NCBI GenBank assembly: GCA_027492255.1
Contig: JAPUFB010000001.1
Coordinates: forward strand, 62,001-126,000
Direction: 5' to 3'
Length of the DNA: 64,000 nucleotides
Origin: Candidatus Saccharimonadota bacterium
GTDB taxonomy: Bacteria; Patescibacteriota; Saccharimonadia; Saccharimonadales; Saccharimonadaceae
Part shown: positions 16,307 to 27,848 of the stretch, one piece after another
Position numbering within the stretch: the stretch's first letter is position 1
How the letters are laid out: every line of letters begins with the position of its first letter
The notes under the pieces: generated by a model
The model's input: the letters and a program-made list of their open reading frames with translations, nothing else
The model's database searches: none
What the model was told of the DNA's origin: nothing
Program-made: the position numbers and the translations under genes

Positions 16307-16437
16307 CTGGAGAGGTGTCTGTGAAGCGAAAGGGCTACTCATAAACAACCAAGGTTGTTGAGAACACCCTGAGCGGATATAGTGAAAATATACCAGTGGT
16401 ATATTAGAACGCCGTGGATACGAAGACACCGATCCAG
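16307..16437 (+). ncRNA. Structured leader upstream of tRNA-Ser(CGA) with a copy of the tRNA 5' end
   Basis: Bases 16309-16321 (GGAGAGGTGTCTG) copy the first 13 nt of the tRNA-Ser that starts at 16450. They sit in a closing stem: 16307-16311 pairs with 16433-16437 and 16314-16320 with 16424-16430, separated by a symmetric GA/GA internal loop. Inside are two further hairpins, AACAACC/GGTTGTT (16344-16359) and AATATACC/GGTATATT (16387-16405), giving a three-way-junction-like fold of 131 nt. The 3' arm could instead pair with the real tRNA 5' end. I know no matching RNA family. Existence as a functional RNA is inferred from the pairing and from a parallel case at 19407-19481. Confidence 0.5.
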
Positions 16438-16449
16438 AGCGTAGCGAAT

Positions 16450-16539
16450 GGAGAGGTGTCTGAGTGGTTGAAGGTGCCGCTCTCGAAAAGCGGTGTGCGG
16501 TCCTCCGTACCGGGAGTTCGAATCTCCCCCTCTCCGCCA
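16450..16539 (+). tRNA. tRNA-Ser (anticodon CGA)
   Basis: Cloverleaf with acceptor GGAGAGG/CCTCTCC, anticodon stem CCGCT/AGCGG around loop CTCGAAA (anticodon CGA, reads UCG), a long variable arm as expected for serine, T-arm with GGGAG-TTCGAAT-CTCCC, G73 and an encoded CCA. Confidence 0.95.
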
Positions 16540-16584: not shown

Positions 16585-16673
16585 TGAAGAAAGGGGAGAT
16601 TTGAACGGAAGAGTTCGGCGTAGTGAATGAAGTAAACAGAGGAGCCGAAGGCAATATACCCCCTCCTCCGCCA
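16585..16673 (+). pseudogene. tRNA-Ser-like remnant with a CCA end
   Basis: Bases 16660-16673 equal the last 14 nt of tRNA-Ser(GCU) (CCCCTCCTCCGCCA). Upstream, a GGGGAGATTTGAAC stretch resembles an inverted T-arm and TTCGGC/GCCGAA can pair, but no full cloverleaf or anticodon arm can be drawn. A good hairpin with a U-run follows 7 nt later. Best read as tRNA debris or a tRNA-like RNA. Confidence 0.4.
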
Positions 16674-16705: not shown

Positions 16706-16859
16706 AGTTTTGTTGGGGCGAGTTTGAACTCACGGGTTTTGCGAAGGCAGAACAAAGAGGGAGTTCGTGAAGCGAACGAAGTGAGCGGAAATAGGGAGCT
16801 TTGCGACCGCCATCTCCCTTTATTATTACTGTGACTCCTTAGGCCGCGATGTCTTCGCG
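16706..16859. repeat. Gene-free stretch with tRNA T-arm-like and GAAGCGAAC-type repeats
   Basis: No credible gene. GAGTTTGAACTC (an inverted T-arm-like palindrome), GTTCGTGAAGCGAAC and GAAGTGAGCGG motifs, and an AGGGAG/CTCCCT pair (about 16792-16818) that may serve as a weak terminator for the Fic gene. Similar pieces recur at 18050-18100 and 18960-19105. Confidence 0.4.
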
Positions 16860-18063: not shown

Positions 18064-18142
18064 GTGAAAAAATGTAAACACTTTTTCACTTCGCTCACTT
18101 CACGACCTACGACTATCGCCAACTAAAGTTGTCGAGTCGTAG
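18064..18142. other. Structured gene-free stretch between the Fic promoter and tRNA-Arg
   Basis: Between 17986 and 18163 I see no gene. Two inverted repeats stand out: GTGAAAAA/TTTTTCAC (18064-18089) and CTACGACT/AGTCGTAG (18107-18142, with an inner AACT/AGTT pair). The segment between them, CTTCGCTCACTTCAC, is the reverse of the GTGAAGCGAAC/GTGAGCGG motifs near tRNA-Ser(CGA). Confidence 0.4.
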
Positions 18143-18163
18143 ATTTAAATCAGCGAAATAGAC

Positions 18164-18202
18164 CAATAAAATAAACCCATACAAGATGAGTTTATTTTAT
18201 TG
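18164..18202 (-). terminator. Terminator of tRNA-Arg
   Basis: Perfect 13-bp A/T-rich stem (CAATAAAATAAAC / GTTTATTTTATTG) with a 13-nt loop, overlapping the CCA end of the tRNA on the minus strand. Confidence 0.6.
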
Positions 18203-18277
18203 GTACACCCGGCAGGATTTGAACCTACGACCTTCGGCTCCGCAAGCCGACGTTCTATCCAGCTGAACTACGGGTGC
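18201..18277 (-). tRNA. tRNA-Arg (anticodon GCG)
   Basis: Cloverleaf with acceptor GCACCCG/CGGGTGT (first pair G-U), D-arm with AGTTCAGCTGGATAGA, anticodon stem TCGGC/GCCGA around loop TTGCGGA (anticodon GCG, codons CGC and CGU), T-arm GTAGG-TTCAAAT-CCTGC, A73 and encoded CCA. Most bacteria read these codons with an ACG anticodon edited to inosine; a genomic G34 would make editing unnecessary. Confidence 0.92.
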
Positions 18278-18959: not shown

Positions 18960-19106
18960 TGGGAAAATAGGGGAGATATCAGCTTAAGCCTCTTCCGCTG
19001 GCTTATCCTGGCAAAAGCAAGCTTTCCCAGGATCTCGCTTCACTACACCGAACTCCCGCTTTTTTCGCTTTGCGAAAACGCGGGAACTCAAGTCTCGGCC
19101 TTTCCC
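18960..19106. repeat. Gene-free stretch with tRNA-like fragments and hairpins
   Basis: Holds GGGGAGAT (as in the tRNA-Ser T-arm, reversed), the stretch TTCACTACACCGAACTC that resembles the inverted 16606-16630 segment, and a hairpin in which GAACTCCCGC pairs imperfectly with GCGGGAACTC (about 19050-19090). No open reading frame worth calling. Confidence 0.35.
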
Positions 19107-19142
19107 AAGAAAAATAGAGACCAAAAGGTCTCTATTTTTCTT
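19107..19142 (-). terminator. Terminator of the tRNA-Ser(UGA)-tRNA-Ser(GCU) unit
   Basis: Perfect 16-bp inverted repeat with a 4-nt AAAA loop, starting at the last base of tRNA-Ser(GCU). The distal arm ends in a T-rich run on the minus strand. Confidence 0.85.
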
Positions 19143-19234
19143 GGCGGAGGAGGGGAGATTCGAACTCCCGCACCAGATCTCTCCAGTCTAACGATTTAGC
19201 AAACCGTCCCCTTCAGCCACTTGGGTACTCCTCC
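19142..19234 (-). tRNA. tRNA-Ser (anticodon GCU)
   Basis: Acceptor GGAGGAG/CTCCTCC, anticodon stem ACGGT/ATCGT around loop TTGCTAA (anticodon GCU, codons AGC/AGU), long variable arm, T-arm GGGAG-TTCGAAT-CTCCC, G73 and encoded CCA. Confidence 0.95.
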
Positions 19235-19294: not shown

Positions 19295-19382
19295 TGGCGG
19301 AGAGGGCGAGATTCGAACTCGCGGTAGGTCGCCCCACGCTTGTTTTCAAGACAAGTACCATCAACCACTCGGTCACCTCTCC
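19295..19382 (-). tRNA. tRNA-Ser (anticodon UGA)
   Basis: Acceptor GGAGAGG/CCTCTCC, anticodon stem CTTGT/ACAAG around loop CTTGAAA (anticodon UGA, reads UCN), long variable arm, T-arm GCGAG-TTCGAAT-CTCGC, encoded CCA. It lies 60 nt upstream of tRNA-Ser(GCU) and is probably co-transcribed with it. Confidence 0.95.
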
Positions 19383-19406
19383 GTATAATACATGAAGGAT
19401 TCTCTC

Positions 19407-19481
19407 GTGGTTTACGCTCGCTGATTATTGATTTTATCAGCTCGCTACCTGGTCAAGCTTTGCTTGACTGGCGTCAACCAC
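19407..19481 (-). ncRNA. Structured leader upstream of tRNA-Ser(UGA)
   Basis: On the minus strand the copied tRNA 5' end continues into GTGGTTGACG (19472-19481), which pairs at 9 of 10 positions with CGTAAACCAC (19407-19416) about 24 nt before the real tRNA. Inside are two hairpins: GTCAAGC/GCTTGAC (19452-19468) and CTGAT/ATCAG (19421-19440). The layout is the same as at 16307-16437: tRNA 5' copy, closing stem, two inner hairpins, then the tRNA. Functional status is inferred. Confidence 0.45.
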
Positions 19482-19502
19482 TCGGTCACCTCTCCGTATA
19501 AT
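19474..19502 (-). repeat. 29-nt copy of the tRNA-Ser(UGA) 5' end and its upstream ATTATAC
   Basis: Bases 19474-19502 are identical to 19361-19389, which covers the first 22 nt of tRNA-Ser(UGA) and 7 nt in front of it. The copy stands 113 nt upstream in the same orientation and has TTATAC as a possible -10 box. Confidence 0.9.
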
Positions 19503-20886: not shown

Positions 20887-21297
20887 TTACGTTGTGAGTA
20901 GACTCTTCGTAATAAAGTCGATCGCCGCATACGAGAGAAAGGCAACGATGATACCGACGATAGCATAGAGTATGGTATTCTTTGCGGCTGTAACTTGGCT
21001 CTGATCACCACCGGAGACAACATAGCGGATACCACCAATAATCAACATAATCACGGCAATCGCTCCAACAAGAAAGAGTAGGATGCTTGTGATGCGCTTA
21101 AACACACTTCCATCGCCTCCGAATAGAGTTGTTGGCTGTGAGTTACTCTTTGCGCAAGTTGCGCCATCTGCGATGGAGGTATTAGGATTAGCCGGATCAC
21201 AGGTCACAGCAGCAACTGGCGTCGCCAACCCGACTAGTAGGACAAGTCCTGGGATGATTAGTAGCGCAGTGGATATTTTTTTCAGTATGTCTTTCAT
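20887..21297 (-). CDS. T4SS pilin-like protein 7
   Basis: 136 residues with AAGGAGA before the ATG. Signal-like N-terminus ending PVAAV, a Cys-containing loop (two Cys about 12-16 apart), then two transmembrane helices joined by a short polar turn: ILLFLVGAIAVIMLIIGGIRYV, then GGDQSQVTAAKNT, then ILYAIVGIIVAFLSYAAI. That is the VirB2/TrbC-type pilin layout common in Patescibacteria. A terminator separates it from the next pilin gene, and a TATACT box with TTGTGT 16 nt upstream suggests its own promoter. Closest relative in the window is the 21413-21811 protein. Confidence 0.8.
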   Translation of the reverse strand: MKDILKKISTALLIIPGLVLLVGLATPVAAVTCDPANPNTSIADGATCAKSNSQPTTLFGGDGSVFKRITSILLFLVGAIAVIMLIIGGIRYVVSGGDQSQVTAAKNTILYAIVGIIVAFLSYAAIDFITKSLLTT

Positions 21298-21364
21298 GTA
21301 TTCTCCTTACGATTCTTTGGTAAAGTCCTGTTGCTAGTATATAACATATTGCCTCCGACACAAC

Positions 21365-21392
21365 AAAATCTCCCCTGTTAAGGAGAGATTTT
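21365..21392 (-). terminator. Terminator between pilin genes 6 and 7
   Basis: 11-bp stem (AAAATCTCCCC with GGAGAGATTTT, one mismatch) ending in T-runs on both strands. It would end the transcript coming from pilin gene 6 on the minus strand. Confidence 0.65.
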
Positions 21393-21412
21393 GAGTAGCA
21401 TTAGAATCCAGC

Positions 21413-21811
21413 TTAAGCGCTGATAAGACCATTAAGAACAAAGTTGACGATCGCAAAGGCAAGAACAGCGACGACAATACCGACGATAGCGTACATAATC
21501 GTATTCTTGGCTGCAGTCACGTGATTCTGATCACCACCGGAGATTACATAACGGATACCACCGTAGATAAGCATGATAACCGCAATTGCACCGATAAGGA
21601 ACAGTAGGATATTCACGATTGTCTTGAAGATACCACTGTCTCCGAATAATGTTGTTGGTGTTTTGTCACCTTGAGCACAGCTTGCACCGTCCTGAATACC
21701 AGCAGATGGGTCACAGGCGGCCATTGCGACTGGAGCGACAAAGCTGAGGCCGAGTACCATAGCTGGTACAAGCAGGAGGCTTTGCGAGATTTTCTTGAAT
21801 GATAACTTCAT
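21413..21811 (-). CDS. T4SS pilin-like protein 6
   Basis: 132 residues, AAAGGAGA upstream of the ATG. Signal-like segment (LLLVPAMVLGLSFVAPVAMA), Cys pair region (ACDPSAGIQDGASCAQGD), then two helices around the GIRYV-(I)SGGDQ-AAKNT core. The loop PTTLFGDSGIF is shared with the 20887 protein, so the two are recent duplicates. Probable filament subunit inserted in the cytoplasmic membrane before assembly. Confidence 0.82.
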   Translation of the reverse strand: MKLSFKKISQSLLLVPAMVLGLSFVAPVAMAACDPSAGIQDGASCAQGDKTPTTLFGDSGIFKTIVNILLFLIGAIAVIMLIYGGIRYVISGGDQNHVTAAKNTIMYAIVGIVVAVLAFAIVNFVLNGLISA

Positions 21812-21886
21812 AATTTTGTTCTCCTTTAGAAGAATTGTTTTTCCTTACGTTTAGTTATACCAGATGTCACGAGTGAAGAAAAGGGC

Positions 21887-22285
21887 CTACTTGATGTTGA
21901 CGACAACAAAGTTGACGATCGCAAAGGCCAAAATCGCCACGATCAAGCCGACAATCGAATACATAAGCGTATTCTTCGCCGCCGTGATCCTTGATTGATC
22001 ACCAGTTGAGGTAACATAACGAATACCACTATAGATAATCATGATAACCGCAAGCGATCCAACGATGAACAAAAGGACATTGATAATATTTTTTACAATA
22101 CTTGTGAGACTATCTGAACTATTCGTCGTTCCGTTACAGTCCGTTTTATTCCCGCCAATCTGGCCAATTCCATCACAGACGGCAGTTTTGTCTACGGCTC
22201 CAACGCTGGGTGAGAGCACAAGTCCAACTCCAAGCTGGAACACAGCCATAAACGCAAGAAGTGCAGTGATAATTCTTTTTTTCAT
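21887..22285 (-). CDS. T4SS pilin-like protein 5
   Basis: 132 residues behind AGAAAGGA. Signal-like N-terminus ending SPSVGAVD, a Cys pair in the loop (VCDG and TDCNG), and two helices around GIRYVTSTGDQ and TAAKNT. The 12-nt gap to the upstream pilin gene (22298-22684) indicates co-transcription and coupled translation. Confidence 0.82.
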   Translation of the reverse strand: MKKRIITALLAFMAVFQLGVGLVLSPSVGAVDKTAVCDGIGQIGGNKTDCNGTTNSSDSLTSIVKNIINVLLFIVGSLAVIMIIYSGIRYVTSTGDQSRITAAKNTLMYSIVGLIVAILAFAIVNFVVVNIK

Positions 22286-22297
22286 ATAATCCTTTCT

Positions 22298-22684
22298 TTA
22301 GACACCTTTTACTACAAAGTTTACTATCGCCATTGCAAGCAGCGCGACTATCAAGCCGGTAATCGAGTAGATAAGCGTATTCTTCGCCGCTGTGATCTTA
22401 CCGCTATCACCATGAGAGATAGTGTACTGAATTCCACTATAGATAATCATGATAACCGCCAAGATACCGACTATCGTCATCATGACATTGATAATGTTCT
22501 TGATAAGACCCCATACATCACTTTTGTTTTTTGTATCACAGAAATCAGTACTAGTCCCGGCGCTAGTGGTACATGCTGGATTATCGAGGACATCAGTTGC
22601 GGACGCACCCGCAAACAGCGGTGCTTGTGTGAGTCCGACGACTATCGATACGCTTGCCAGAAAACCTACGAGGTATTTTTTCAT
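22298..22684 (-). CDS. T4SS pilin-like protein 4
   Basis: 128 residues behind AAGGAGA. Signal-like N-terminus (FLASVSIVVGLTQAPLFAGASA), two Cys in the loop (ACTTS and DFCDT), and two helices around GIQYTISHGDSG and TAAKNT. Very similar in its helices to pilin 5. Same operon as pilins 3 and 5. Confidence 0.82.
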   Translation of the reverse strand: MKKYLVGFLASVSIVVGLTQAPLFAGASATDVLDNPACTTSAGTSTDFCDTKNKSDVWGLIKNIINVMMTIVGILAVIMIIYSGIQYTISHGDSGKITAAKNTLIYSITGLIVALLAMAIVNFVVKGV

Positions 22685-22696
22685 ATTTTCTCCTTA

Positions 22697-22987
22697 TTAC
22701 ACACTTCCTATTACAAATCGAACAATAACGAAGGCAAACATACTCACGATTAAACCAGTAATTGCGTAGATGATTGTATGCTTGGCTTTTGTTACTTTGC
22801 CGGAATCACCCTCTGATATAACGTAATTGATACCACCGACTATGATAAATACGACACATAATGCCCCGACAATAGCAAGGACAGTACTAAAAATTCCGCT
22901 GACAGAACTCGCGGTAAGATTGACTTTTGGAATATTACTCGGCGCATTATATGCGGCCGCTAGAAGTGTCGTGAATAAATGCATCAT
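22697..22987 (-). CDS. T4SS pilin-like protein 3, short form
   Basis: 96 residues, the shortest of the set. It lacks the Cys loop and a clear signal peptide and begins directly with a short hydrophobic N-terminus before SGIFSTVLAIVGALCVVFII. The core is GGINYVISEGDSG and KAKHT in place of AAKNT. Its ATG overlaps the stop of the upstream gene in an ATGA, so translation is coupled. It may be a minor pilin or assembly subunit. Confidence 0.75.
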   Translation of the reverse strand: MMHLFTTLLAAAYNAPSNIPKVNLTASSVSGIFSTVLAIVGALCVVFIIVGGINYVISEGDSGKVTKAKHTIIYAITGLIVSMFAFVIVRFVIGSV

Positions 22988-23397
22988 AGTAACGCTCCCT
23001 GAATAGTCCTAACTATCATGACAGCCGCAAGTGCGATAACAAGACCGATAATTGCGTCACGAATAGTATTCTTTGCGCCAGAGATTTCACCTGGCTCTCC
23101 TTGAGATTTCACATATCGTATACCGCCCCAGACGATATATCCGACTGCGCCATATCCCGCAATACCAATAAGTATCTCGAGAAAATTGAGGGCTACAATC
23201 CATATATCGTTCAGTGCGTTAATCTTTGGGTTACTTTTGGCATCATCGTCGCATTCCAACCCTCTATACCATGATGGGAAGGTAAGGATACCGCCGCCCT
23301 TACAGGTTGCTGCTGCGCCCACACTTGGAACTGAGACAAAAGCACCGCCAATAACGAGGATGCCGAGAAGGAATAGGTGTTTGATTTTTGCGTTCAT
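22984..23397 (-). CDS. T4SS pilin-like protein 2
   Basis: 137 residues from the ATG at 23397 (GAAAG upstream). The frame extends to a TTG at 23436, but that TTG is the start of a TTGACA box, so the internal ATG is preferred. Signal-like N-terminus ending PSVGAAA, Cys loop with CKGGG and LECDDD, then two helices around GGIRYVKSQGEPG and GAKNT. More divergent than pilins 4-7. Confidence 0.78.
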   Translation of the reverse strand: MNAKIKHLFLLGILVIGGAFVSVPSVGAAATCKGGGILTFPSWYRGLECDDDAKSNPKINALNDIWIVALNFLEILIGIAGYGAVGYIVWGGIRYVKSQGEPGEISGAKNTIRDAIIGLVIALAAVMIVRTIQGALL

Positions 23398-23440
23398 ATT
23401 TACTTTCAGTGTTATATATCCGTGTAAGGTTGTCAAATAT

Positions 23441-23818
23441 TTAGTTAAATAGCCCGCCCGGTACGAGATAGTTTAGCGCGGCATACATAAAGATGAAGAG
23501 TATGAGCGCGATGACAGCGTTCGTAATAATACTTATGCCTTGTTTTGTCTTTCCAGCATCACCTTCAGAGGTAGCATACACGATACCCCCCCAGATAATC
23601 CCTCCAACAACGGCTATACCTACGCCAACTGCAAGAAAATTGACGATCGCAAAGATAAGGCCTGTTATGCCACTTTTTCCTGGATCACATTGATAATCAT
23701 AGCTTGTTTCTACGCCACCACAGGATGCTGCGAAAACCTGAAGCGAGAATACGAGAGATGAAGTAATTGAACTAGCTGCTATAACGAGTGAACGGAGTGA
23801 TTTTTTCATTTTTATCAT
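23441..23818 (-). CDS. T4SS pilin-like protein 1
   Basis: 125 residues; AAGGA lies 3 nt before the ATG at 23818, and a second in-frame ATG follows at 23809. Signal-like N-terminus ending LQVFAAS, Cys pair (SCGGV and YQCDPG), two helices around GGIVYATSEGDAG, with TKQGIS instead of the AAKNT motif. First gene of the leftward unit, just after the promoter. The most divergent pilin of the seven. Confidence 0.75.
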   Translation of the reverse strand: MIKMKKSLRSLVIAASSITSSLVFSLQVFAASCGGVETSYDYQCDPGKSGITGLIFAIVNFLAVGVGIAVVGGIIWGGIVYATSEGDAGKTKQGISIITNAVIALILFIFMYAALNYLVPGGLFN

Positions 23819-24804: not shown

Positions 24805-24863
24805 GAGACGCAGAGCCCTCGCTTTAGTTGCATTTTATACAGAGCATAGGCATAATAAACAAT

Positions 24864-27848
24864 ATGTCTGTGCTCTTTAGTTTAGGAAAACAATTCTCCC
24901 GATTCTTAGGAGTAGGTTTTCTTGTTGCTATAGGGTTCGCCTTTCTCCATAGTCCGATTGCGCACGCAGCATACTATGATGACCCTGTCGTATACACCAC
25001 ACTCCCGGATGGATCCATCCTTGCGACTGGGGGAATTTATAGTGCGTGGTATAAAGCACCTCAAAAAGATAGCTTTGGAGCTGGACTCGGACAGGCATGT
25101 ATCGACAAGGGATATAAGACCAATATAGAGTGTGCTAAGAATATATATCCTGATAAGATCAATCCTTTTTATGCAAGCTCGTTCAGTGATTCAAGAAGCG
25201 GGATGCTTTTCGTTCAGCGCGGAGGGGCAGGAAAGTATGCACTCGAGATACCAAAAATATTCGCTCTCTATCCTGGAGGAAATACAACCGGCACAGACTG
25301 CGTACTTGCTATTAATCTCGTTGACTCAGCAGCTGGTACTGGCAATATAACTGCAATCAAAGCCCAGCAAGCTGGGTCAAATATTCAAGACTCTACTTGT
25401 CCTGGCTATATGAGCGGTTCCGTAACAGGACAGCTCACTATGCTTATCGGCTCATCACTCCAAACGGATGTAAATTCAACCAGTAAGGGTCTTCGTATTG
25501 CGATTGATACATCCGTTAATAGCGACAACTCTTTGTACGGTAAGGCTGTTCCATCTTGTGCAGGAAGCCCGCCCGACAATGCGTGCATAACAAGTCGCAG
25601 TGATGCACTTAATTCTATAGCGACAACCTGCGAAGAACAGCTTCGCCAGAATACAAATGATCCATGCAGCTCGATTATCGTCTGTTTACGCGCCGACTAC
25701 ACAAAAAGTGTTGCTCAGTGCTCAGCTAGTACACTTACGTCTGATCAATGTGCCGCAAGTGGTGGAGGTGCTTGTATTGTTGATACAACGACGACTGATG
25801 CCCAAATCAAAGATCGATGCAGTAAGGCTTCGGATGTAGCAAAACAAACATCGTGTGTTGCTAATATGACGACGCAAAGAGCCGCGATGATAGCAGGCGC
25901 GAGTACAGACTCATGTAAAGCGAATCCCGCGGCTGAAGGATGTAAATTTGATACAACGAAAGCTGATCCGTCATGTACGGCAGGACCTCTTGGATGGATT
26001 ATCTGCGGGCTTATAAAAACCATTAGCACCGTCAATGATGGTATTTTCGCAATTCTTCAGCAATGGCTCTTTATCAATCCAGTCGCTTTGAGCACGGAAC
26101 CTGGAAAAGACTCACTCTATACGACATGGAAGGTGTTTCGTGATGTCGCGAATATTGCATTCATCATCGCACTTATGATAGTTATTTTCTCGCAAGCGAC
26201 ATCCGTAGGACTCAGTTCTTACGGTATCAAAAAGATGCTTCCGAAGATTATTGTGTCGATCATCCTTGTAAACCTATCATTCTTTATATGTAAGTTTGCA
26301 GTTGATATCTCCAATATTATTGGTGGGTCCATAGGTGGATTCTTTGACGCTGGTATTAAAGCGATCTCGTCAGGTAGAAACTTTGGAAATCTGAACGCTA
26401 TATCATGGGATGGTCTCGTTACCGCTCTGATCACCGGTGGCGCAGCAACGGGAGTTATCTTCGCAGCTATCTCAGCAGGGGGAGGATGGGCGGCTCTCGC
26501 TATGCTGCTGCCTTTCGTCGTCACTGCATTATTTGCAGTAGTCACGACCTTCCTTGTTGTGATGGTACGCCAAGCAGTACTGATACTACTTGTTGTTCTC
26601 TCGCCACTCGCATTTGTCGCCTACATTCTACCGAATACCGAGAAGTGGTTTGATAAATGGAAAGATACGTTCGCAACCGTTCTCTTCTTGTATCCACTTA
26701 TTGCATTGCTCTTTTCTGGCAGCAAACTCGCGGCCTGGGTGATTATTAGTTCTGGTATGTCGACCAATCCTGCTGACGGTATTAGTCCGTCACTCATGTT
26801 TATCGCACTGATTATCACCTTTATCCCTCTGTTCGCTGTGCCGTGGCTTATTAAGGTTGCCGGTGGTGTACTGGGACGCTTTGGTGGCATGATCAATAAC
26901 CCAAACAAGGGACCATTTGATGCACTCCGTAAACGAGCCGAGGGTGTCCGGGATACTGCAGGTAATAACGCAAAAGCAAACGCGCTCAAGAATTTCAGTG
27001 CCACTAACGGAGGAAGACCTCCCAAGTGGTATAGCCGGGGCTTTGGCGCTAGTGCATACCGCACTGCAACAAAAAATTATAGACAGCAGCAGTCGGCTAC
27101 TAATCTCCAGAATGCCCAGACGGCAGCGGTAGGAAACGCATTAACCGCAAACCAGTCATATGCACGAGCAGTGGCGGGTGGTAAACAAGCCTCAGCTGAA
27201 GATGTCACACGAGCAATCGCCGCTGGTTTAGGGGCCCTCAATGAAATTGAGGCAAAGAATTTGAAGGCCGCTCAGACAGTCCTTGCCGATGCACATCTTG
27301 ACGGGAAATCGATGTTTGGTGTGATGGATGGAACAAACTTCCAAGATAGAAACGGCAACACTATTCAGGCTACTCCATTCATGCAGAAAGCTGCTATGGC
27401 AACCTTTATGGAACAAGGAAGACAAATCGATGATGTCGCGAAGAAGTTTGCATTTCATAAAGATAAGGATATGCGTGACTTCTTTGTCGGCCAAGTGCAA
27501 TCAAACTATTCAAAGGTGAAGGAAAGACAGGCAGGCTACACTGATGAAGCATTGCTTGAGAATATATCAAACGGATCTATTACTACTCAGACTCAGCTTG
27601 ATACAGCATTGGTTGCATCTTCAGGTAAAGTTGCAAAAACACTCAATGTCGAGACATTTGCAACCCAAGAGGCTATCTCACTCAATAGAATTATGGCGCA
27701 CGTCCTACCAGACGTAAAATCTGGAGTAATTACTGCAGATACCCGAAGAATCCTTGATGTCGCCAAACAGGTTGAGAGGACTCCCGGTGCGCGAGCAAAG
27801 ACGACTGGTGAAACCGCACCTATCATCACCAGTATTGGTAATCTCTAG
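24864..27848 (+). CDS. Large VirB6/TrbL-like polytopic membrane protein
   Basis: 994 residues from the ATG at 24864; an upstream ATG at 24828 is less likely. Signal-like N-terminus ending SPIAHAAYYDD. Residues about 40-380 are extracytoplasmic and Cys-rich, with many Cys pairs. About 390-690 holds several transmembrane helices (IALMIVIFSQATSVGL, KMLPKIIVSIILVNLSFFIC, AILLLVVLSPLAFVAYIL and others), typical of VirB6/TrbL channel proteins. The last 300 residues are cytoplasmic, Ala/Gln/Asn-rich and helical. It would form the inner-membrane channel of the T4SS. The large Cys-rich outer domain is an addition to the standard VirB6 plan. Confidence 0.75.
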   Translation: MSVLFSLGKQFSRFLGVGFLVAIGFAFLHSPIAHAAYYDDPVVYTTLPDGSILATGGIYSAWYKAPQKDSFGAGLGQACIDKGYKTNIECAKNIYPDKINPFYASSFSDSRSGMLFVQRGGAGKYALEIPKIFALYPGGNTTGTDCVLAINLVDSAAGTGNITAIKAQQAGSNIQDSTCPGYMSGSVTGQLTMLIGSSLQTDVNSTSKGLRIAIDTSVNSDNSLYGKAVPSCAGSPPDNACITSRSDALNSIATTCEEQLRQNTNDPCSSIIVCLRADYTKSVAQCSASTLTSDQCAASGGGACIVDTTTTDAQIKDRCSKASDVAKQTSCVANMTTQRAAMIAGASTDSCKANPAAEGCKFDTTKADPSCTAGPLGWIICGLIKTISTVNDGIFAILQQWLFINPVALSTEPGKDSLYTTWKVFRDVANIAFIIALMIVIFSQATSVGLSSYGIKKMLPKIIVSIILVNLSFFICKFAVDISNIIGGSIGGFFDAGIKAISSGRNFGNLNAISWDGLVTALITGGAATGVIFAAISAGGGWAALAMLLPFVVTALFAVVTTFLVVMVRQAVLILLVVLSPLAFVAYILPNTEKWFDKWKDTFATVLFLYPLIALLFSGSKLAAWVIISSGMSTNPADGISPSLMFIALIITFIPLFAVPWLIKVAGGVLGRFGGMINNPNKGPFDALRKRAEGVRDTAGNNAKANALKNFSATNGGRPPKWYSRGFGASAYRTATKNYRQQQSATNLQNAQTAAVGNALTANQSYARAVAGGKQASAEDVTRAIAAGLGALNEIEAKNLKAAQTVLADAHLDGKSMFGVMDGTNFQDRNGNTIQATPFMQKAAMATFMEQGRQIDDVAKKFAFHKDKDMRDFFVGQVQSNYSKVKERQAGYTDEALLENISNGSITTQTQLDTALVASSGKVAKTLNVETFATQEAISLNRIMAHVLPDVKSGVITADTRRILDVAKQVERTPGARAKTTGETAPIITSIGNL

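Follow-up and report, generated by a model that had tools for sequence, protein, structure and literature searches.

RtT-like units at tRNA genes of Saccharibacteria: structured inserts nested in partial tRNA copies

Results

A partial tRNA copy and a folded leader upstream of tRNA-Ser(UGA)

An intact tRNA-Ser(UGA) gene lies on the reverse strand of the window, the whole 64,000-nt stretch of Saccharibacterial DNA that was analysed, and it is preceded by a partial copy of its own 5' end (Table 1). The original prediction, that 29 nt including the tRNA 5' end are repeated 113 nt upstream, was borne out at every position. With the flanks of tRNA genes of other isotypes as the null, this copy scored 22, above the 99.9% point of 14.4. 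As was also predicted, GTGGTTGACG read from the sequence pairs with CGTAAACCAC at 9 of 10 positions, and two inner hairpins lie between these arms of a closing stem. By eye the tandem GA/GA of hairpin b is symmetric. The 120-nt leader has a minimum free energy (MFE) of -37.2 kcal/mol, compared to -22.1 +/- 3.2 for shuffled sequences (z -4.7), and 0 of 200 shuffles folded as well. Between the insert and the tRNA we found no hairpin followed by a T-run, that is, no intrinsic terminator, and transcriptional attenuation is therefore unlikely at this locus.

All four tRNA genes of the window carry a unit

We found that 4 of the 4 tRNA genes in the window are accompanied by such a unit. The leader of tRNA-Ser(CGA), which had been described as sharing this architecture, has a 14-nt copy and a 14-nt closing stem. 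In addition to what was predicted, this gene has downstream copies, tRNA-Arg(GCG) and tRNA-Ser(GCU) have downstream units, and many other tRNA genes of the genome also carry one. The two Ser leaders had been described as different in sequence, but they are not wholly unrelated, since by eye both contain insert B motifs, which are hairpins flanked by GA.

The terminator hairpin after many tRNA genes of this genome starts with the CCA end, which is paired to TGG at the end of the stem (for example 19105-19144). Elsewhere in the window, seven short ORFs (96-150 aa) are arranged in tandem on the reverse strand at 20887-23818, all with similar membrane sequences of two segments. They resemble pilin or VirB2/TrbC-like paralogues and adjoin the ORF of a large membrane protein at 24828-27848.

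Table 1. Features of the tRNA units in the window.
Feature	Position	Strand	Evidence or remark
Intact tRNA-Ser(UGA)	19295-19382	-	ARAGORN; Rfam RF00005, 58.5 bits
Upstream partial tRNA copy: tRNA nt 1-22 (19474-19495) plus 7 nt from before the gene	19474-19502	-	29/29 identical to 19361-19389
Other member of the direct repeat: real tRNA 5' end with the preceding 7 nt (ATTATAC)	19361-19389	-	direct-repeat comparison
UGA-leader insert (S-insert), including the segment up to the repeated gene start	19390-19473	-	homologue in G153
Closing stem, 5' arm GTGGTTGACG	19472-19481	-	sequence, MFE fold
Closing stem, 3' arm CGTAAACCAC; base 19416 is in hairpin b in the MFE fold	19407-19416	-	sequence, MFE fold
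Hairpin a, GUCAAGC-AAA-GCUUGAC	19452-19468	-	MFE fold
Hairpin b, GC-GA-GCUGAU...AUCAGC-GA-GC, tandem G.A	19416-19445	-	MFE fold
Intact tRNA-Ser(CGA)	16450-16539	+	ARAGORN
Upstream 5' copy of tRNA-Ser(CGA), TGGAGAGGTGTCTG	16308-16321	+	
CGA leader: closing stem 16307-16320 / 16424-16437, GA-flanked hairpins	16307-16437	+	arms 86% complementary
B-like insert in CGA leader, TGTGAAGCGA...TGAGCGGATATAGTGA...AGAACGCC	within 16307-16437	+	B core
Antisense T-arm copy of tRNA-Ser(CGA), downstream unit	16593-16606	+	14 nt, 93% complementary to 16516-16529
Downstream 3'-end copy of tRNA-Ser(CGA), CCCCTCCTCCGCCA	16660-16673	+	86% identical to 16526-16539
Second downstream unit of tRNA-Ser(CGA): T-stem copy GGGAGTTCG, insert B core GAGCGGAAATAGGGAG	16759-16798	+	
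Antisense T-arm of tRNA-Arg(GCG) (18201-18277, -), downstream unit	18136-18151	-	88% complementary to 18216-18231
Downstream unit of tRNA-Ser(GCU) (19142-19234, -)	19049-19094	-	sequence; direct copy score 11
Parts of the tRNA-Ser(GCU) unit: antisense GACTTGAGTTCCCGC; direct T-stem copy GCGGGAGTTCGG	19080-19094; 19049-19060	-	

Partial copies of the adjoining tRNA are common in Saccharibacteria

The flanks of tRNA genes were searched for partial copies of their own tRNA, with other-isotype flanks again as the null; counts cover the retrieved tRNA loci and their flanks. In G000, the genome of the window, 19 of 41 tRNA genes have such a copy (10 upstream 5' copies and 11 downstream 3' copies). 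Copies were likewise present at 16 of 47 tRNA genes in G017, 16 of 43 in G088 and 10 of 27 in the draft genome G002. At that score the null rates were approximately 2-3% upstream and 0.4-0.6% downstream. Overall, about 35-45% of the tRNA genes in the Saccharibacteria examined adjoin a partial copy. The genes concerned include those for Met, Arg, Gln, Leu, Gly, Val, Ser, Phe, Pro, Lys, Glu, Tyr and Trp. The layout of tRNA 5' copy, closing stem and inner hairpins, whose presence at both Ser genes had been thought to make chance less likely, is indeed not due to chance, since it recurs at many tRNA genes in this and other genomes.

The units take two forms. An upstream unit begins with the 5' part of the tRNA, followed by a structured insert, often an antisense D-arm or anticodon arm, and then the real tRNA. 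In a downstream unit the real tRNA is followed by a terminator hairpin, an antisense T-arm, a direct copy of the T-stem 5' strand, the insert (which sits in the T-loop), the tRNA 3' part to CCA and a second terminator, and the tRNA end is thus in a direct-inverted-direct arrangement. Both forms occur at one gene for Met, Gln and Ser-CGA, and stacked units were found at L116 (two), L120 and L141. Upstream units such as those of L100, L131 and L012 have a GCACCTTYCGG-like motif just before a -10-like box next to the real tRNA. We found no description of such units in Saccharibacteria or Patescibacteria in the literature searched, bioRxiv and most subscription journals lying outside that search.

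Inserts are conserved structures

The UGA insert together with its tRNA copy matches L116:1357-1455 with 80% identity over 98 nt (E=7e-17). This segment lies upstream of tRNA-Ser(GGA) in G153, a genome of another genus, and was the one other copy found. In hairpin a the stem is identical and the loop differs. In hairpin b a C-G to U-A and a G-C to A-U change, two compensatory pairs, flank the conserved GA/GA. A homologous leader before another tRNA gene, as the original prediction proposed to look for, therefore exists, and we did not find the picture of simple recent tandem duplications that lack structural conservation in relatives. A conserved leader proper to tRNA-Ser is not supported. The unit is absent from G001 and G002, the two same-genus relatives with a readable locus, equivalent units also follow tRNA genes, and the insert family that was studied most closely changes between isotypes and sides.

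That family, insert A, is 86-90 nt long and forms three hairpins with 33 pairs. We found that 97.3% of cells are paired and that double changes occur at 28 of the 33 pairs (shuffled mean 12.9), with a score of 0.414 versus 0.135. The unpaired GUGA, GNAA and GG and a GAA triloop are conserved. There are 65 G.U cells compared to 9 A.C cells, which indicates that the folded strand is the tRNA-sense strand. A second family, insert B, was found in G000 and G017 and consists of two GA-flanked hairpins. Taken together, these comparisons show that the inserts fold into conserved structures, and that they do so on the strand that is sense for the tRNA.

Insert A occupies unrelated tRNA genes and variable sites

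Insert A is carried by 66 of the 198 genomes of the family. A covariance model detected it in 11 of the 380 genomes searched across the phylum; these belong to the same order, except for one weak match at a contig end. Its named database matches are Saccharibacteria, other CPR or unassigned MAGs. There are 6-11 copies in G000, G017 and G088, and G017, G116, G279 and G567 have 11 each. Of 99 mapped copies, 46 are downstream and 34 upstream of a tRNA on the same strand, and 80 of the 83 tRNA-linked copies are in the sense-strand orientation. Most of the remaining copies belong to units whose tRNA is missing from the retrieved DNA; these keep the 3' copy and usually the terminators too. In the orphan downstream units L118, L110, L134, L231, L236, L237 and L224 the tRNA body is gone or absent, and they retain a few 3'-end bases, the terminator, the antisense segment, insert A and the 3' copy.

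Copies of insert A do not group by tRNA isotype or by side, and their nearest neighbours are mostly at other isotypes. Within G000, the Gly and Arg copies share 96-97% identity, as do the Lys copy and the two Leu copies, one on each side. We then compared one site, Leu(UAA)-lemA, within one genus. It is empty in G177, G147, G570, G155 and others, occupied by an A unit in G139, G171, G201, G205, G116 and G577, and holds a decayed remnant in G163. Terminator 2 of the filled sites matches the single, ancestral terminator of the empty ones. The presence of insert A at unrelated tRNAs on either side, the near-identical copies within a genome and the empty, occupied and decayed sites among congeners together indicate that insert A moves. 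Ectopic gene conversion could be the source of part of the similarity within a genome. Overall, the inserts thus behave like structured elements that are mobile and do no damage to the tRNA, with the strongest evidence for insert A.

No candidate enzyme follows the distribution of insert A

We searched for genes that might mobilise the inserts. No reverse transcriptase (RVT_1) was found in G000 or G088, both of which have many copies, which argues against a retroelement. A TnpB/Cas12f-like nuclease was present in 0 of 20 genomes, and an IS200/IS605 TnpB omega-RNA system was rejected. Every genome tested has its Xer-like recombinase, with or without insert A, and most had just this usual single one. 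Y1 transposase genes were present in 4 of the 10 genomes listed as carrying insert A and in 0 of 10 others, in a small and uneven sample that included G088 and three G052-genus-type relatives chosen through earlier matches, and they are absent from the four genomes with 11 copies each. Neither reverse transcriptase, TnpB, a tyrosine integrase nor Y1 therefore fits the genome distribution as a universal mobiliser.

Y1/RAYT genes do lie within or beside downstream units. One is just downstream of tRNA-Gly(GCC) in G000 (L012 760-1350) and another is inside the second downstream unit of tRNA-Ile in G201 (L282 987-1550), and a Y1 gene may occupy the slot that inserts use. The Y1 genes are flanked by their own palindromes, which are unrelated to insert A, and insert A is strong only in L012. 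On these grounds we rejected Y1/RAYT as the source of insert A, though it remains a lead, and, given that only 4 of the 10 A-bearing genomes have Y1, membership of the inserts in REP/RAYT. Insert A was not found in collections of viral contigs, phages or plasmids, and a prophage- or plasmid-borne element was rejected as well.

The units resemble E. coli RtT in kind

As a control we scanned 38 tRNA genes of E. coli K-12. Nine have 18-19 nt downstream 3' copies, all in the lys and arg arrays. Rfam assigns the lys copies to RtT RNA (RF00391), with the best match at tRNA-Lys lysQ. The lysQ locus (L319 2578-2830) has a full RtT-type downstream unit, including an antisense T-arm and a terminator 2 identical to terminator 1. 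In addition, rttR is annotated behind tyrV, and four further tRNA-Tyr 3' ends lie behind tyrT. The upstream 5' form was called at 1 of the 38 genes, from a spurious overlapping tRNA call, and no genuine case was present in this sample. To our knowledge, RtT RNA, an unusual repeat found at a few E. coli tRNA genes, has so far no accepted role or origin.

Like RtT, the Saccharibacterial downstream units have a tRNA 3'-end copy that follows a T-stem 5' strand copy and a structured insert, and some E. coli inserts have GAA loops, tandem GA (GAGCGAAGCGAG) and GA-flanked hairpins like those of family B. The insert by a tRNA 3' copy that marks RtT was found in G000 at, for example, Glu, Lys, Val and Phe; the UGA leader, a mirror image on the 5' side, itself lacks this downstream arrangement. 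In contrast to RtT, the Saccharibacterial units are at single tRNA genes of many isotypes, have mostly other insert families, add the upstream form and score below any listed RF00391 match. RF00391 had no match in the window at the gathering score and none in 24 distinct Saccharibacterial loci at E<=5, while the same search does find RtT in E. coli. We therefore regard the units as RtT-like, a likeness of kind and no claim of homology. The downstream architecture is already known from E. coli RtT.

Other known classes were also considered. At permissive thresholds Rfam returned tRNAs only, with no credible other family at the leaders, and without a covariance match there group I and group II introns were rejected. 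Since the antisense piece often spans the insertion point, the unit might be spliced as an intron; no intron model matches, and an intact tRNA makes splicing unnecessary. A T-box or other transcription attenuator was rejected for lack of a terminator between the UGA leader and the tRNA and of any Rfam T-box match in the window. Leader ribozymes in place of a lost RNase P were rejected because rnpB was present in 5 of 5 genomes tested, and the RNase P RNA is ordinary.

Discussion

Our analysis suggests that the UGA leader represents an RtT-like unit in its upstream (5') form, with a small non-coding structured element nested in a partial extra tRNA copy. On balance, we think that such units are probably non-autonomous structured elements that are mobile and that on arrival copy one end of the tRNA and leave a working tRNA. 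The insert would be the mobile part and would need its own fold to spread. Its arrival would be coupled to copying of one tRNA end in the direct-inverted-direct order that template switching would give, and since arrival copies one end, a functional tRNA would always be left. Movement may depend on host replication and repair proteins or on an unrecognised enzyme. Judging by its position, the leader at the UGA locus would be transcribed in the pre-tRNA and removed by RNase P. Against the mobile reading stands that none of reverse transcriptase, TnpB, Xer or Y1 is linked to the elements as a mobilising enzyme, and movement is deduced from the comparison of sites.

REP/RAYT and other small palindromic mobile elements are short, structured, non-autonomous, present in many copies per genome and variable between strains. 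The units share these properties. They differ from REP/RAYT in being confined to partial tRNA copies, mostly in genomes with no RAYT gene.

The main rival, which we consider unlikely, is that the units are cis-acting regulators of pre-tRNA maturation, in which the extra tRNA end and the antisense piece compete with the real strands. The precursor would fold either as the true tRNA or as a chimera with the insert in the D/anticodon junction or the T-loop; it could be bistable, and the insert could be a sensor or a processing signal. The antisense piece is opposite the real tRNA arm in both unit forms. Where the downstream pseudo copy departs from the tRNA, the antisense piece matches the real strand alone at 42 positions and the copy alone at 12. 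This count is biased, as the match to the real tRNA was used to locate the antisense piece in the first place. The Val units of two congeners track their own tRNA sequence, and 23 of 46 copies are exact to their own tRNA over 20 nt; so many matching copies and the constant strand of the inserts would fit a host function as well as mobility. However, the units are patchy among congeners, some are decayed or without a tRNA, and the inserts are not sorted by tRNA identity. The missing terminator at the UGA locus and the ordinary RNase P RNA also speak against regulation.

A further possibility, which we regard as improbable, is that replication template switching at tRNA genes, with inverted triplications at short palindromes, gives rise to the units as by-products that have no element of their own. 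Inserts would then keep their fold for the sole reason that, without structure, they would interfere with the tRNA. Inverted triplication by replication template switching, such as ODIRA, is described as giving a direct-inverted-direct arrangement of one sequence (PMC4689423), the pattern that we see for the tRNA end. Terminators and tRNA arms are palindromes, and several insert types exist, as this explanation would expect. The copies differ from ODIRA in being about 20-60 nt long, in holding a conserved unrelated insert and, as far as is known, in involving no replication origin. Insert A is moreover one homologous family with conserved unpaired bases, spread across genera in up to 11 copies per genome, which suggests that more than locally generated sequence is needed.

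Slightly less probable still is that the units are scars of integrases or transposons, with tRNA-end repeats as attachment sites or target duplications and the insert as the remnant of a larger element or as a REP-like hairpin that a Y1/RAYT transposase mobilised: tRNA 3' ends are classic integration sites and Y1 genes do adjoin two of the units, but Y1 is lacking where insert A is most numerous, the Y1 palindromes are unrelated to insert A, the phage, plasmid and viral sequences do not contain it, and the target copies vary in length and include inverted segments.

Returning to mobile structured elements, RtT-like units may, more tentatively, belong to a general and ancient class that encodes no protein, parasitises bacterial tRNA genes from either end and moves via RNA or ssDNA folds and host enzymes. 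E. coli RtT would then be one isolated branch, and Saccharibacteria would hold the most expanded and varied set. We think this broader proposal possible, yet doubtful.

Annotators should keep in mind that the partial tRNAs next to real ones in these genomes do not result from random decay. An RtT-type architecture at 35-45% of the tRNA genes of a distant, streamlined phylum makes RtT a comparative problem, to which Saccharibacteria add a mirrored form on the 5' side, an insert family that shows covariation, and sites that may be filled in one species and empty in its sister. How the element moves, why tRNA genes are preferred and what effect the extra tRNA ends have on tRNA maturation can now be tested.
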